The position numbers were made by a program, and so were the translations under genes. Shown one piece after another: positions 35,276-46,844 of a stretch of DNA of 64,000 nt. The notes under the pieces are model-generated. The model did not search any database. It was not told the DNA's origin and saw nothing but the letters and a program-made list of their open reading frames with translations. Within the stretch, counting starts at the first letter, position 1; the number at the start of each line of letters is the position of its first letter. The stretch is from Deltaproteobacteria bacterium (GTDB taxonomy: Bacteria > Myxococcota_A > UBA9160 > PR03), in contig JAPSFT010000007.1 in the NCBI GenBank assembly GCA_035063765.1, positions 62,001-126,000 on the forward strand, read 5' to 3'.

Positions 35276-35661
35276 TTCCCGTGCCCCCCTCGCGCGTAGA
35301 TCGGTTACCCGATGCGCCCACGGTCGGGCGCGGCATCCCTTTCCCACCGGCCTCCCGTCCTGCAACCGCTCGATCGCTGCGTTCTGGAAGCACGGGCTGC
35401 GCGGTGAAACGATCTCGTGTCGGACCGGCAACGCGCTCGCAGGCAGAATGATCGGCACGTGCAGAACGTGCTTGAGTGCCGAGTGCACGTTTCCCATCGA
35501 AACACCGGAAACACCGAGATGAGGTGCTACCGGGAACACATTTCCTAGGGTGTTGCCCGCCGTGTACTCGGGGATTCTCCCGAGATGCCGGGCGTACGTA
35601 CACCGATGCACGATCGCGATTGCGTCGTGTTCATCGAAATCCGCTCAGTATCGGTTGGGAA
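35276..35661. promoter_or_regulatory. Regulatory-looking gap with repeats before the sigma-54 activator
   Basis: This 386-base region is less GC-rich than its surroundings and has no convincing gene. It holds a tandem direct repeat GAAACACCG at 35499-35507 and 35508-35516. An inverted repeat AACGTGC at 35465-35471 / GCACGTT at 35485-35491 (13 bases apart) and the palindrome GCACGTGC at 35455-35462 lie beside it. These look like operators for the master regulator's promoter. No clear sigma-54 or sigma-70 promoter was read. Confidence 0.4.
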
Positions 35662-36654
35662 TCAGACCCAGGGCTCGTCGGAGTCCGAGCCGAGCACGAT
35701 CTCGCCCTGGTCCGCAAGGCGGCGTGCGACGTCGACGACCTCGCGCTGCTTGGCCTCCACCTCGGAAAGGCGGCGCGGACCGAGCGACTCGCTCTCGTCG
35801 GCCAACGACTCTCGGGCGCGGGTGGAGAGGCAGGCGTGCACACGCTCGCGCAGCGAGTCCGAAGAGGCCTTGAGCGCCAGCGCCAGGTCCTCCATCGGGA
35901 CCTGCTGGAGCAGCCGCCGCATCCCCTTGTCATCGAGCGAGGACAGGTGCTCGAAGGTGAACAACTGGCGGCGGATCTCCTCGGCGATCGTGCCGTCGGC
36001 GGCCTCGAGCGCATCGAGCACCTCGTCGCCTTGCGCCTTGCGGAGCTGCGCGATCAGCTCGGCGGCCAGCGCCGGCCCCGCCGCCGGCGTGGCGCCGCGC
36101 TCGTGGTCGGCGAAGAGCTCCTCCAGGCCGGCGGCGACGTCCGACACCACCTCGGCCGTGACCGACTCGAGGGTTGCGAGCCGGCGCACCACCTCGGGCC
36201 GCACGGTGTCCGGGAGCGCGGCGATCACCGCCCCGCCCTGCCGGGTGGGGAGCTGCGAGAGGATCAGGGCGATCGTCTGCGGGTCCTCGCCCGCGATGCC
36301 GCTCGCGATGAAGGCGGGCGTGTGCGGATGCAGCGCCCAGGCGATCGGCGCGTAGTCGCGGCGGTACTTGGCGCGCAGCCGCTCGGCGTGCGTCGGCGGC
36401 AGAAGGGTCTCGATGATCTCGAGGGTGCGGACCGCACCGCCGAAGACGGCCCCGCTGCGGCCCGCGATGCGCTCGCGAAACTCCTCCAGGACCCGGGCCT
36501 GGAGCTCTGCCGGAACCGAGTCGATGCGCGACACGGCTGCCAGGATCCTCTCCACTTCCTCCTCGTCCATGCGCGAGAGCAGCTCGCGCGCACCCTCCTC
36601 GGGCAGCGAGAGGATCAGGATCGCCGCCTTCTCGGGCCCGGAGAGCTCGCTCAC
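35662..36654 (-). CDS. fliG: FliG, motor switch protein
   Basis: This 330-residue protein matches FliG throughout: ELSGPEKAAILILSLPEEGARELLSRMDEEEVERI at the N-terminus, HPHTPAFIASGIAGEDPQTIALILSQLP in the middle, and a torque domain with EEIRRQLFTFEHLSSLDDKGMRRLLQQVPMEDLALALK. It couples stator force to rotation at the MS ring. The GTG overlaps the stop of the PilZ protein by four bases. Unusually it is not beside fliF, which is absent from the window. Confidence 0.96.
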   Translation of the reverse strand: MSELSGPEKAAILILSLPEEGARELLSRMDEEEVERILAAVSRIDSVPAELQARVLEEFRERIAGRSGAVFGGAVRTLEIIETLLPPTHAERLRAKYRRDYAPIAWALHPHTPAFIASGIAGEDPQTIALILSQLPTRQGGAVIAALPDTVRPEVVRRLATLESVTAEVVSDVAAGLEELFADHERGATPAAGPALAAELIAQLRKAQGDEVLDALEAADGTIAEEIRRQLFTFEHLSSLDDKGMRRLLQQVPMEDLALALKASSDSLRERVHACLSTRARESLADESESLGPRRLSEVEAKQREVVDVARRLADQGEIVLGSDSDEPWV

Positions 36655-37457
36655 AGGGCATCCCCGACGCGCGCGAGCAGCGCACCGGCGCGCTGCGCGT
36701 AGGTCTGGGTCACGGCCTGTGCGAGGCGCTGTGCGAGCCAGGGCTTGGCGGCGCACAGGTAGCGGAACGAGGACTCGTGGATCTCGAGCAGCCGCACGTC
36801 GGTGGCGGCCTGGGCGGACTCGCTCGGCAGCCCCTCGGCGACCAGCGGAAGTCCCCCGAAGAGCCGCCCCGGCCCGAGCCGTGCCAGCAGATGGTCGCGC
36901 ACCCCTCGCGCGCGCACTTGGAGCGCCACCTCACCGCTGTACACGATGAAGATCGAGCTCAGGCCGCTGCGCGGCACATCGCCGCGGTAGATATAGTGAC
37001 CGGTGGTTACGTTCCGCCAGCGCGATGCGTGCGCGAGGCCAACCGCCTCGTCGACCGAGAAGTGCGACAGGTCCGAGCCTCCGTAGAGGAAGCGTGCCAG
37101 CGTCTTGCCGCTGTCGAGCACCAGGTCCCAGAGCCTCGTCACGACCTCGTCGGGCAGATCCGTGAAGGAGACGCCCGTCAGCATGACCTTCTCACTCGGC
37201 TCCTCGCGCTGCCAGCGGCCCTCGGCCTCGAGCATGACGGCACCGCCGGGCAGATGGAGCCTCACGCGCCGGATCGAGCGGATGTCGAAGCCCGAGGCCG
37301 TCGCGATGCAGGCACCGCCGATTCCGAGGTCGCGGGTCTGCCCGACGAGCGGGCCGGGCAGACCCGCGCTCACGATCTCCGCGCGATGATCGGCTCCCAC
37401 GCGCGGGTCCGAGCGCGCGTGGCGCAGATGGTCGAAGGGAGCCTGCGAAGTACTCAT
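36651..37457 (-). CDS. PilZ plus cyclic-nucleotide-binding domain protein, coupled to fliG
   Basis: This 268-residue protein has a PilZ-like domain (residues 15-115) and a cNMP-binding-like domain (140-250, with YIYRGDVPRSGLSSIFIVYSGEVALQV and FGGLPLVAEGLPSESAQA). In PilZ the arginines R19 and R25 are present, but the D-x-S-x-x-G motif reads DLGIGG, so the serine is lost. No helix-turn-helix is seen, so it is not a Crp-type DNA binder. Coupling to fliG suggests a YcgR-like second-messenger effector acting at the motor. Confidence 0.75.
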   Translation of the reverse strand: MSTSQAPFDHLRHARSDPRVGADHRAEIVSAGLPGPLVGQTRDLGIGGACIATASGFDIRSIRRVRLHLPGGAVMLEAEGRWQREEPSEKVMLTGVSFTDLPDEVVTRLWDLVLDSGKTLARFLYGGSDLSHFSVDEAVGLAHASRWRNVTTGHYIYRGDVPRSGLSSIFIVYSGEVALQVRARGVRDHLLARLGPGRLFGGLPLVAEGLPSESAQAATDVRLLEIHESSFRYLCAAKPWLAQRLAQAVTQTYAQRAGALLARVGDAL

Positions 37458-37483: not shown

Positions 37484-38125
37484 CTAGAGCGCGACGAGGC
37501 CCTCGTGGATGGCGACACGGACGAGCCGCGATGCCTTCCGGATCTTCAGCTTCGCCATCAGGTTGCAGCGGTGGGTCTCGACCGTCTTGATCGAGACCCC
37601 GAGCGCCGTCGCGATCTCCTTGCTCGACAGGCCCTCGGCGATGAGCTGGAGCACCTCGCGCTCGCGACCCGTGAGCAGCGAGACCGGGGACGCGGCCTCG
37701 CCCGGTTGCACCAGCGCCCCGACGACGCGGTCGGCGATCGATGGCGAGAGGTACGTGCGCCCCGCCGCGAGCGCGGCGATCGCATCGCGCAGCTCCGCCG
37801 GCGAGCAGGATTTCACGAGGTAGCCGGCCGCACCGGCCTGGAGCGCCTGGGTGACCTGAAGCTGGCCATCGTGGATCGAGAGCACGAGGCAGCGCGTGCG
37901 CAGCCCGCGCTGCCGGATGCGCCGGATCGCCTCGACTCCGGAGAGGCGCGGCATCGTCAGCTCCAGCACCGCGATGTCGGGCTCGTGCAAGGTGGCGAGC
38001 TCCACCGCCTCCTCGCCGGTCGCGGCCTCGGCGACGACGCGCAGCTCGGGCACCTCCTCCACGAGCCGCCGCACACCCTCGCGCACCAGGCGGTGATCGT
38101 CGGCGAGCAGGAGCTTTACGATCAC
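37484..38125 (-). CDS. LuxR/NarL-type response regulator with Glu55 at the phospho-site
   Basis: This 213-residue regulator has a receiver (LLLADDHRLVREGVRRL) and a LuxR helix-turn-helix (LTGREREVLQLIAEGLSSKEIATALGVSIKTVETH). The residue expected to be the phosphorylated Asp is Glu55 (PDIAVLELTMPRLSG; codon GAG). Asp9, Asp10 and the Lys in GYLVKS are kept. Asp-to-Glu often mimics the active state, so it may bind DNA without a kinase. GGAGG precedes the GTG start. It lies 26 bases upstream of the PilZ gene and probably heads that operon. Confidence 0.88.
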   Translation of the reverse strand: MIVKLLLADDHRLVREGVRRLVEEVPELRVVAEAATGEEAVELATLHEPDIAVLELTMPRLSGVEAIRRIRQRGLRTRCLVLSIHDGQLQVTQALQAGAAGYLVKSCSPAELRDAIAALAAGRTYLSPSIADRVVGALVQPGEAASPVSLLTGREREVLQLIAEGLSSKEIATALGVSIKTVETHRCNLMAKLKIRKASRLVRVAIHEGLVAL

Positions 38126-38306
38126 GGACTTGCCTCCGATCCGGCGGGCCGCCTGCCGGTGGCACGCACGACGCTGATCGGCGGCGGGCCGGACGGCGCG
38201 GATCGGGGAGACCGTGGATTTCTCGGACTTAGACCCTGTACGTCGAGGTCAGGAGAAGCTCCTGGAAGCCTCGGTATTTCTACCGATCTCGCCTCCGCCC
38301 TCGGCC
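38126..38306 (-). terminator. Gap with two hairpins between twin response regulators
   Basis: CAGGAG-AAG-CTCCTG at 38250-38264 and CGGTA-TTTC-TACCG at 38272-38285 are short perfect hairpins just after the upstream regulator's stop. They probably weaken read-through from one regulator gene to the other. No promoter was recognised in the rest. Confidence 0.35.
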
Positions 38307-38948
38307 TCAGGGAGCGACCAGGCCCTCGCGGATCGCCAGGCGCACCAGCCCCGAGGTCTTGCGGATGCTGAGCTTGGTCATGAGGTTCGCGCGGTGCGTC
38401 TCGGCGGTCTTCACCGAGAGGCCGAGCTGGGTGGCGATCTCCTTCGAGGAGAGGCCCTCGGCAACGAGCTGGAGTACCTCGCGCTCGCGGTCGGTGAGCA
38501 TGGCGAGCGGCGCCGCCCGGCGCTCCTCGCCACCACGGACCGCCTCGACCATGTGGTGCGAGATCGCCGGGGATACGAAGGCACGCCCCCCGCGCACGGC
38601 GTCCACCGCCTCCAGGAGCTGGCGCGCGGCGGCGCTCTTGACGACGTAGCCGAGGGCCCCTGCCCGCAGCGCCTCGCGAACATGAGACCAGCTCTCGTGC
38701 ATCGTCAGGACCAGCACCCGCGTATCGCCCTCGCGTGCGATCTGGCGGGTCGCCTCGACCCCGGAGAGACGCGGCATCCAGAGGTCGAGTACCGCAATGT
38801 CGGGTCGATGACACCGCGCCAGATCTACGGCCTCCCGCCCGTCGCTCGCCTCCGCGACGACCTCGAGGTCGGTGCGGCTCTGGATCAGCAGCCGCAGCCC
38901 CTCGCGAACCATCTGGTGATCGTCGGCCAACAGGATCCGGGTGGCCAT
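38307..38948 (-). CDS. LuxR/NarL-type response regulator with intact Asp55
   Basis: This 213-residue regulator is a close paralogue of the neighbour at 37484-38125 and has the same length. It keeps the phosphorylation site (PDIAVLDLWMPRLSG, Asp55), the acidic pair ADDH and Lys in GYVVKS. The helix-turn-helix is LTDREREVLQLVAEGLSSKEIATQLGLSVKTAETH. The divergent kinase at 39190 is its nearest partner candidate. The ATG at 38948 begins ATRILLADDHQMVREG. Confidence 0.92.
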   Translation of the reverse strand: MATRILLADDHQMVREGLRLLIQSRTDLEVVAEASDGREAVDLARCHRPDIAVLDLWMPRLSGVEATRQIAREGDTRVLVLTMHESWSHVREALRAGALGYVVKSAAARQLLEAVDAVRGGRAFVSPAISHHMVEAVRGGEERRAAPLAMLTDREREVLQLVAEGLSSKEIATQLGLSVKTAETHRANLMTKLSIRKTSGLVRLAIREGLVAP

Positions 38949-39189: not shown

Positions 39190-40272
39190 GTGAACGAGCT
39201 GGGTGCGCTGCTCGCCGTCACGCGCGAAGCGATCGCGCTCGTCGACGCGAACGGCACCGTGCTCGCTAGCAGTGAGGCGTTCGCGCGGCTGCTCGGAGGC
39301 GGAGGCGGACGGCCCGCGCGTCTCGCCGACGCACTCGGTAGCGACGCGTGGGCGGCCCTGCACCGTGCGGCCGTCAGCGCGGCGGCCGCAGCGGGCCCGC
39401 CCGCAACGGCGGCACCGGAGCGGACCTTCCCGCTGCGCGTCGAGCTGGTGACGGAGACCGGCCCGCGTGCCTTCGACCTGCGCGTACGACGCGTGGCCGG
39501 GGCCGGTGGTGCGATCGCCGTCGCGCTCCACGAGACCGGATCCGGGCCGGAAGAGCGAGCCGCCGGCCGCCGCGCCGCGCCGCGCCGCGCCCAGCGCGGC
39601 CGGCTGGCGCGCGGGGCAGCGCACGAGCTCGCCAACCTGCTCGTGTCGATCCAGTTCGCGAGCGATGCGCTGCTCCGGGGCGAGGCCTCTCCAGCGGAGG
39701 CACGCGACGACCTCACGGCGATCCGCGAGGCGGCCGAGCATGCCGGGGCGCTGCTTCGCCGGCTCCAGGTGGGCTCGGTGCCGCCCGAGGCAGAGGCGCC
39801 ATGCGACCTCGGCGCCGCGGTCACCGCCTTCGCGCCGCTCCTCGAGCGTCTCCTGCCACCGCGCGGGCCCTGCACGGTGGCGGTGGCCGACGCGCCACTG
39901 CGCGTGCGTGCGGGTCGCGAGCGGATCGAGCAGGTGCTCGCGAACCTCGCGCTGCCGGCGGACGACGCGGCGCCCGCCTCCGGCACCTTCGAGCTGCATG
40001 TCCGCCGCGCGACGCTCGGCGACGACGCGGGCAGACGCGGCCTGTTCGGTGCGCCGGCCGGCATCTACGGGGCGATCGTGGTACGCAACGCCGGAGCCGG
40101 AGCCGCCGCGCTCCACGCCCGGCTCGCCGAAGACGAGGGCCTCGGCCTGCCGCAGGTGCGTGCGCTCGTCGTCGACGGGCTCGGCGGCGACATGGCGATC
40201 GAGGACGCACCGGAGGGCGGCGCGCTCGTGACCGTCTACCTCCCGCTCGCGTCCGACGACGCGGCCGGCTGA
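39190..40272 (+). CDS. PAS histidine kinase with degenerate ATPase domain
   Basis: This 360-residue protein has an N-terminal PAS-like part (REAIALVDANGTVLASSEAFARLLGG), a dimerisation helix with the phospho-accepting His (RGAAHELANLLVSIQ) and a poor catalytic domain. The N box reads LANLALPADDAAP, with Pro for the essential Asn. The G1 box reads RNAGAG, with Asn for Asp, and no F box is seen; only GLGL of G2 remains. It may be an inactive kinase that acts as phosphatase, phosphotransfer or docking partner for the adjacent regulators. Confidence 0.75.
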   Translation: MNELGALLAVTREAIALVDANGTVLASSEAFARLLGGGGGRPARLADALGSDAWAALHRAAVSAAAAAGPPATAAPERTFPLRVELVTETGPRAFDLRVRRVAGAGGAIAVALHETGSGPEERAAGRRAAPRRAQRGRLARGAAHELANLLVSIQFASDALLRGEASPAEARDDLTAIREAAEHAGALLRRLQVGSVPPEAEAPCDLGAAVTAFAPLLERLLPPRGPCTVAVADAPLRVRAGRERIEQVLANLALPADDAAPASGTFELHVRRATLGDDAGRRGLFGAPAGIYGAIVVRNAGAGAAALHARLAEDEGLGLPQVRALVVDGLGGDMAIEDAPEGGALVTVYLPLASDDAAG

Positions 40273-45398: not shown

Positions 45399-46844
45399 TT
45401 GGACCCGTCCCTGCACCGATCACGCTGGCTGACCGAGCTCGAGGACGCCCTCCTGCTCGGTGCGGCGACGATCGACGGCGACGGCCGCATCGCGCTCTGC
45501 TCCGAGGGCTTCGAGCGCCTGCTCGCCGCTCGCGAGGGAGCGCAGCTTGCCGCGCTGGTGGCGCCGGAGCAGCGTGAGCCGCTGCGCACCGCGCTCGACG
45601 CCGTGCGCGACGGTGAGCCGGAACGCGTACTGCGCCTCCCGGACGGCAGCAACGGGCGCGTCGTCGAGCTGCGCCTGCGCCGGTCGGCCGAGCCGGGTGG
45701 TCGGGTTGCCGCACTCGCGCGCGACCGCAGCGACCTCGACCGCATCGAGCGCCACCTGCTGCTCTCCGAGCGGCTGCGCCTGGTGGGCGAGATGGTGCTC
45801 GGCTGCGCGCACGAGTTGAACAACCTGCTGGGCGTGATCTGCCATGTCGCCGAGTCCGACACGGAGCCCGAGCCCGGCGACCTCGAGCTGCTGCGCCGTT
45901 CGGCCGACGACGCGCGGGGGCTCGTCCAGCGGCTGCACGGGTTCGCCCGCAACGAGGATGCCCTGGCCCGGCCCGGCGACGTCGTGGACGCACGCGAGGT
46001 GCTGCGCGACGCGCTCGAGTTCACCCGCCTGCGCTGGCAGCGCGAGGCTGCCGCTGCCGGCATCCGGATCGAGGTGGAGGCAGACCTCCAGCCCGTCGGC
46101 GTGGTGACCGGCTCGGCGGCCCAGCTCCGGCACGCCGCGATCAACCTGATCACGAACGCGATCGACGCGATGCCGCGCGGCGGGCGGCTCCGGGTGGGGA
46201 CCCGCCGGGACGGCGACTACGCCGTACTCGAGGTCTCGGACACCGGGACGGGCTTTGCGTCGGAGCTGCAGGAGCGGATCTTCGAGCCCTTCTTCTCGAC
46301 CAAGGGCGAGACCGGGCTCGGCCTCGGCCTCACGATCGTGGGCGAGATCGTCGCGCGACACGAAGGGCAGCTGCGCGTGCGCTCCCACGCGGACCGGGGC
46401 AGTGCCTTCGAGATCCGCCTGCCGGCCCGCACCGACGCATCGGTCCGGGTGGACGGCGCTCCGCCCGCCCGGGCGGGGGCCGCTCGCGCCTCGCGCGTTC
46501 TGCTCGTCGACGACAACCAGCTCCTGCGCCGTCTGATCGCGCGCACGCTGCGCGGCGACGGGCACGAGGTGCTCGAGTCGTCGAGCGCGGAGGAAGCGGA
46601 GGCGCTCGCGACCGAGCCGGATCGGATCGACCTGCTGATCCTGGATGTGTCGCTACCGGGCCGCTCCGGGCTCGAGCTGATCCGCATCCTGCGCGCGCGC
46701 GGCTGCCGGGCCCCGGCGCTCCTGATCACGGGCTGGGGCTTCGATATCCGCGCGGTCGAGGCGACCCGTGTCCTCGCCAAGCCCTTCTCGCCCGAGGCCC
46801 TGCGCCGCGCGATCGCTGAGCTCCGGGGTGACGACGGCGCGTAG
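45399..46844 (+). CDS. Hybrid PAS-histidine kinase with receiver
   Basis: This 481-residue protein has a PAS domain (about 20-130), a His box (VLGCAHELNNLLGVI), an intact ATPase domain (INLITNAIDAMPRGG, VSDTGTGF, IFEPFFSTKGETGLGLGL) and a C-terminal receiver (VLLVDDNQLLRRL, LLILDVSLPGRSG, LAKPFSPE). It is soluble, with no membrane helix. Unlike the kinase at 39190, all catalytic boxes are present. TTG at 45399 follows GGGAG. The last 192 bases overlap the convergent cyclase gene. Confidence 0.9.
   Translation: MDPSLHRSRWLTELEDALLLGAATIDGDGRIALCSEGFERLLAAREGAQLAALVAPEQREPLRTALDAVRDGEPERVLRLPDGSNGRVVELRLRRSAEPGGRVAALARDRSDLDRIERHLLLSERLRLVGEMVLGCAHELNNLLGVICHVAESDTEPEPGDLELLRRSADDARGLVQRLHGFARNEDALARPGDVVDAREVLRDALEFTRLRWQREAAAAGIRIEVEADLQPVGVVTGSAAQLRHAAINLITNAIDAMPRGGRLRVGTRRDGDYAVLEVSDTGTGFASELQERIFEPFFSTKGETGLGLGLTIVGEIVARHEGQLRVRSHADRGSAFEIRLPARTDASVRVDGAPPARAGAARASRVLLVDDNQLLRRLIARTLRGDGHEVLESSSAEEAEALATEPDRIDLLILDVSLPGRSGLELIRILRARGCRAPALLITGWGFDIRAVEATRVLAKPFSPEALRRAIAELRGDDGA

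Follow-up and report, generated by a model that had tools for sequence, protein, structure and literature searches.

A putative Glu-type pseudo-receiver encoded beside an Asp-bearing paralogue in a flagellar gene cluster

Introduction

The closest precedent for the locus described here is the CmrR/CmrT pair of Clostridioides difficile, co-located regulators with D52 and E53 that both affect motility and are reported to form heterodimers (PMC12548384). The two regulators analysed here, RR-A with Asp55 and RR-B with Glu55, likewise lie side by side, and their tie to motility is their location in a flagellar cluster. However, CmrR and CmrT belong to the OmpR/PhoB family, whereas RR-A and RR-B are NarL/FixJ proteins with a GerE output domain, and the CmrR/CmrT operon contains a kinase and a c-di-GMP riboswitch, whereas the kinase-like gene adjoining the RR-A/RR-B pair is divergent and has a degraded ATP site. 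The authors of the CmrR/CmrT study deem duplication unlikely for that pair, and no order-wide recurrence was described for it (PMC12548384).

RR-B also shares the missing phospho-accepting Asp with ChxR-like aspartate-less receivers, in which Glu is the commonest replacement, the switch Lys is mostly retained and the second acid is often lost (PMC4395418, PMC12632262, PMC3960148). Glu pseudo-receivers being common (PMC12632262, PMC4395418), RR-B itself thus belongs to a known class. Unlike many aspartate-less receivers, however, RR-B and its orthologue in a second genome of the genus keep both acids, and unlike such receivers at large, the family studied here has Glu alone as the replacement, recurring beside Asp relatives. 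The atypical Streptomyces regulators BldM and WhiI form homo- and heterodimers (PMC4125116; discussed in PMC12632262), but they owe their activity to developmental expression and are not adjacent flagellar-cluster twins like RR-A and RR-B. FsnR of Stenotrophomonas controls flagellar genes and has a link to c-di-GMP, which recalls the position of RR-B in a flagellar cluster beside a PilZ gene, but FsnR keeps and needs Asp53 and binds c-di-GMP itself, unlike RR-B with its Glu55 (PMC9600515).

Glu acts as a phosphomimic in many regulators (PMC12632262, PMC4395418). An Asp-to-Glu exchange alone often fails to activate, as for CheY, PhoB and Spo0A (cited in PMC4395418), and mimics at D53 of FsnR failed (PMC9600515). 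Whether Glu causes constitutive activity of natural pseudo-receivers is an open question in the field (PMC12632262).

Results and discussion

The stretch of DNA analysed (64,000 nucleotides, hereafter the window) carries a long flagellar cluster of an organism known from metagenome assembly only. Reading of the translated ORFs gave fliC, fliD, flgL, flgK, flgI, flgH, flgG, flhF, flhA, flhB, fliR, fliP, fliN, fliM, fliL, a gene for an NtrC-like activator, fliG, a gene for a protein with PilZ and cyclic-nucleotide-binding domains (PilZ-cNMP), rrB, rrA and then motB and motA. By tblastn, the order from flhF or flhB through motA is matched in G001, of the same genus, and in G002, of a sister genus in the same family (record QEVM01000075, MAG PRO3), and it is this gene order that places RR-A and RR-B among flagellar genes. 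ORF, domain and alignment data agree on rrA (38307-38948) and rrB (37484-38125), both on the minus strand, encoding 213 residues each and separated by 181 bp. The preliminary description of the two ORFs was accurate in these respects, as it was in assigning Asp55 to the copy that is transcriptionally upstream (rrA, codon GAC at 38784-38786, minus strand) and Glu55 to the other (rrB, codon GAG at 37961-37963, minus strand), with the acidic pair and Lys kept. The PilZ-cNMP gene (36651-37457, minus strand) starts 26 bp downstream of rrB and is syntenic in G001 and G002, and its stop is overlapped by the start of fliG (35662-36654, minus strand; named from translation and synteny), such that rrB, the PilZ-cNMP gene and fliG look co-transcribed. 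A scan for sigma-70 promoters and terminators between 36.5 and 40.4 kb returned none, the scan being uninformative at the local G+C content.

In domain searches both proteins consist of REC and GerE domains (PF00072 and PF00196; E=3e-25 and 5e-19 for RR-B), with the N-terminal receiver and C-terminal GerE/LuxR helix-turn-helix that define the NarL/FixJ type. BldM and WhiI are of the NarL/FixJ type as well. The AF2 model of RR-B (pLDDT 92.6) has the ordinary NarL fold, and NarL, VraR and LiaR were its best solved relatives in a fold search; the best match was BeF3-activated LiaR, in a comparison where such a model does not separate active from inactive states. In the alignment RR-B retains D9, D10, S83, Y102 and K105 and, with the phospho-accepting Asp exchanged for Glu55, is an aspartate-less receiver. 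RR-A retains the equivalents of these residues, with Thr instead of Ser (a 1-aa gap offsets the numbering of the two proteins by one past about residue 75). Identity between the two proteins is 59% over their full length, the receivers alone sharing 55% and the DNA-binding domains 74%, and their recognition helices are alike (VSIKTVETHRCNLM and LSVKTAETHRANLM). RR-B, a protein without any Trp, lacks the W[FLM][TS]R motif for c-di-GMP with which the receiver ends in VpsT/CsgD-type regulators.

The adjacent A/B pair is conserved in the window's genome (G000), G001 and G002, and RR-A has Asp in all three. The syntenic RR-B orthologue of G001, 68% identical to RR-B and without Pro59, also has Glu55 but encodes it by GAA rather than GAG, which rules out an assembly artefact. 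A single-strain variant, which the preliminary description had considered, and a sequencing error are both excluded by this conservation of Glu55 in a relative with a different codon. The syntenic B gene of G002 encodes Asp55 (GAC). The adjacent Asp/Glu arrangement of the CmrR/CmrT kind is therefore found in G000 and G001, while G002 has Asp in both genes, indicating that the Glu is younger than the pair. Read most simply, these three loci point to an Asp-to-Glu change within the window's genus that postdates the pair. Between G000 and G001, receiver identity is comparable for RR-B and RR-A (60% and 62%) and identity of the DNA-binding domain is higher for RR-B (86% against 71%), so RR-B is decaying no faster than RR-A.

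A census of homologues, mostly from 80 genomes of the order with a few from the phylum, gave 105 distinct proteins once a divergent tandem copy with Gly55 from G029 and one further long row had been excluded. Site 55 is Asp in 89, Glu in 16 and nothing else. The 16 Glu proteins are spread over 15 genomes (G000, G001, G008, G009, G015, G021, G028, G029, G033, G039, G040, G043, G052, G058 and G062), with two from G028, and the possibility that Glu is restricted to the twin locus was thereby ruled out. A tree of the 105 proteins was built by a quick search with sites 10 and 55 left out; mapping Asp and Glu onto it takes seven changes, only four of them forced by starred branches. A smaller, more careful tree requires six, at least five forced by well-supported branches. 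Part of these changes could be reversals from Glu to Asp. A single origin of Glu was rejected (one clade of the ten Glu proteins then known; AU p=7.3e-5). The A and B proteins form two separate well-supported clades; a joint A+B clade was not recovered, although it was not rejected either (AU p=0.24). The earlier view of RR-A and RR-B as duplicated close paralogues stands as regards their relatedness, but that they are sister duplicates is not established.

Glu proteins across the order share an active-site pattern. The switch Lys (Lys105) and the Ser/Thr at 83 are retained in 16 of 16. Twelve of the 16 no longer have D10, the second acid that binds Mg, compared with 2 of the 89 Asp proteins (Fisher p=8e-11, a value inflated by related rows, four of the Glu proteins coming from one genus), and the D+1, T+1 and T+2 positions are likewise relaxed in Glu proteins. 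In RR-B and its G001 orthologue, however, D10 is present and the metal site has not been ruined; this counts against the reading of RR-B favored below, as does the loss of Pro59 in the G001 protein. Of aspartate-less receivers at large, 26% have Glu in place of the Asp and 29% carry an acidic residue at the position of the second acid (PMC4395418). At that rate, four to six independent replacements would all be Glu with p of about 0.005 to 0.0003 (0.26^4 to 0.26^6), although 26% may underestimate the baseline for recent events, Asp-to-Glu being a conservative one-base change. Recurrence of Glu only, with both phosphoryl-binding residues kept, is what would be expected if Glu were a built-in mimic, without being proof of it.

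Taken as a whole, the comparisons favor, with a probability of roughly 0.55, RR-B as a Glu-type pseudo-receiver that is likely held by its phosphomimic in an output state set by expression, through a change that was repeated in the order. As a NarL/FixJ transcription factor without the acceptor Asp, RR-B would not be phosphorylated by histidine kinases at the usual position. The longer side chain of Glu55, with Lys105 and Ser83, would most likely keep the receiver at or close to the phosphorylation-induced state of its Asp55 relatives. In place of phosphorylation, output would depend on the amount of RR-B made, through the apparent operon with the PilZ-cNMP gene and fliG, and possibly also on pairing with RR-A. 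From the sequence we infer that phosphorylation of RR-B has been lost and, as an unproven extension, that RR-B is constitutively active on flagellar or surface-attachment targets. The same single change arose several times in related bacteria, for which reason Glu55 probably reflects functional rewiring and did not come about by accident.

One point at which this reading could fail is the role of Glu itself, which might be near-neutral: the receiver would have gone unphosphorylated since loss of its kinase, leaving a protein that works solely through its DNA-binding domain, with a Glu that mimics nothing. The state of the neighboring kinase-like gene is consistent with such a history, as it is with the favored reading. 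This divergent gene (39190-40272, plus strand) gives weak matches to both HisKA and HATPase. Compared with intact kinases, its product has Pro for the N-box Asn (NLALPADDA vs NLITNAIDA) and Asn for the G1 Asp (NAGAG vs DTGTG) and lacks an F-box, but keeps AHELAN at the phospho-acceptor His (His and ExxN retained), and is a probable pseudokinase. The counterpart in G002 is degraded further, and none was found at the G001 locus. The pair and its neighbor are thus not an orthodox kinase-regulator set, the adjoining gene having a degraded ATP site; an intact hybrid kinase is encoded about 6.5 kb off, at 45399-46844. The frequent loss of D10, the relaxed D+1, T+1 and T+2 positions and the single base that separates Asp from Glu would also fit a near-neutral Glu. 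Nonetheless, we consider that account unlikely, given that the replacement is Glu in every one of the 16 proteins, that all of them keep Lys105 and Ser/Thr83 and that the RR-B receiver is as conserved as that of RR-A. The His-Glu-x-x-Asn retained in the kinase-like protein resembles the HisKA phosphatase motif, making it conceivable that the product dephosphorylates RR-A.

A second alternative, that RR-B acts mainly as a partner of RR-A, with heterodimers or mixed operator occupancy modulating the phosphorylation-dependent sister, gains from the conserved adjacency in G000, G001 and G002, from the similar recognition helices and 74% identical DNA-binding domains, and from the precedents of CmrR/CmrT (proposed; PMC12548384) and BldM/WhiI (shown). 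We regard it as quite improbable nonetheless: the A and B receivers have diverged to 39-55% identity, which gives no hint that a common interface has been preserved, and the sole family member of G009 at E<=1e-30 is a Glu protein, so that Glu does not need an Asp twin. The proposal in the preliminary description of a copy locked in an active-like state, perhaps competing with its sister at the same operators, is a plausible hypothesis. That RR-B is instead locked off, a dominant-negative decoy occupying sites without activating because Glu is no phosphate mimic, would agree with the failed mimics of FsnR (PMC9600515) and others cited in PMC4395418, but is very unlikely, as recurrent Glu over Ala, Asn or Ser would then be harder to explain.

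Returning to RR-B as a phosphomimic-held regulator, its linkage to the PilZ-cNMP gene extends beyond the window. PilZ-cNMP homologues are present in 42 of the 80 genomes of the order, and in about 15 the gene adjoins one for a NarL-type regulator. The neighbor has Glu55 in G000, G001, G009, G015, G021 and G040 (and in G028, at 1.2 kb) and Asp55 in G002, G022, G023, G031, G038, G047, G069, G070 and G079; with both residues represented, what the PilZ-cNMP gene is linked to is the family of regulators and not Glu. We offer only tentatively the broader generalization that the order's PilZ/cyclic-nucleotide-tied NarL-type regulator repeatedly and independently took a phosphomimic, always Glu, usually losing the metal site. 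If true, nature would have run the same experiment several times over in this order, each time converting a switch that depends on phosphorylation into a regulator that is constitutive and controlled by its expression. The repeated Asp/Glu changes within one regulator family are what specialists might make use of: close relatives with separate changes provide paired material for a direct test of the role of Glu, and matched contexts that differ at site 55 are available in G009 (Glu) vs G070 (Asp) and in G000/G001 (Glu) vs G002 (Asp). In the PilZ protein of the window, RxxxR is present and the usual DxSxxG position reads DLGIGG. A literature search for the combination of PilZ, a cyclic-nucleotide-binding domain and LuxR-type regulators found none.

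A candidate operator box, GAAATACCGA (38271-38280, minus strand), with one mismatch to GAAACACCGA, lies upstream of rrB, and two tandem copies of GAAACACCG (35499-35517, plus strand) lie upstream of the gene for the NtrC-like flagellar regulator. With at most one mismatch allowed, the 10-mer GAAACACCGA precedes rrB as well as the ntrC-like gene in three of three genomes of the family (at L115 6565 and 9402 and at L116 10675 and 13383 in the other two). No 10-mer of this kind arose in 60 shuffles, a control that ignores the kinship of the species, and GAAACACCGA is thus a candidate for an operator shared by the two genes. Across the whole window, one-mismatch matches of the 9-mer were no more frequent than chance. 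Another pattern, GGTNGAANNNCCGA, was tried first and dropped, as it was not enriched in the window.

Some homologues elsewhere in the order have unusual residues or neighbors. The tandem NarL-like regulator of G029 (L148 9119-9727), with Gly at the phospho-site, adjoins a Glu55 regulator in a flagellar cluster, so that neither member of that pair has a phospho-Asp. Regulators of G070 (L145 9816-10454) and G039 (L153 6296-6928) keep Asp55 but carry Ala or Ser in place of the second acid that binds Mg; lying inside the clade with Glu55 members, they are possible intermediates or reversals. A gene for a GspE-like ATPase recurs near the regulator in G002, G062 and G028, and an HDOD gene in G002 and G062. 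At the G062 locus (L260 3250-7962), the Glu55 regulator has a second, divergent regulator upstream and faces the GspE-like and HDOD genes, an arrangement resembling that in the window.
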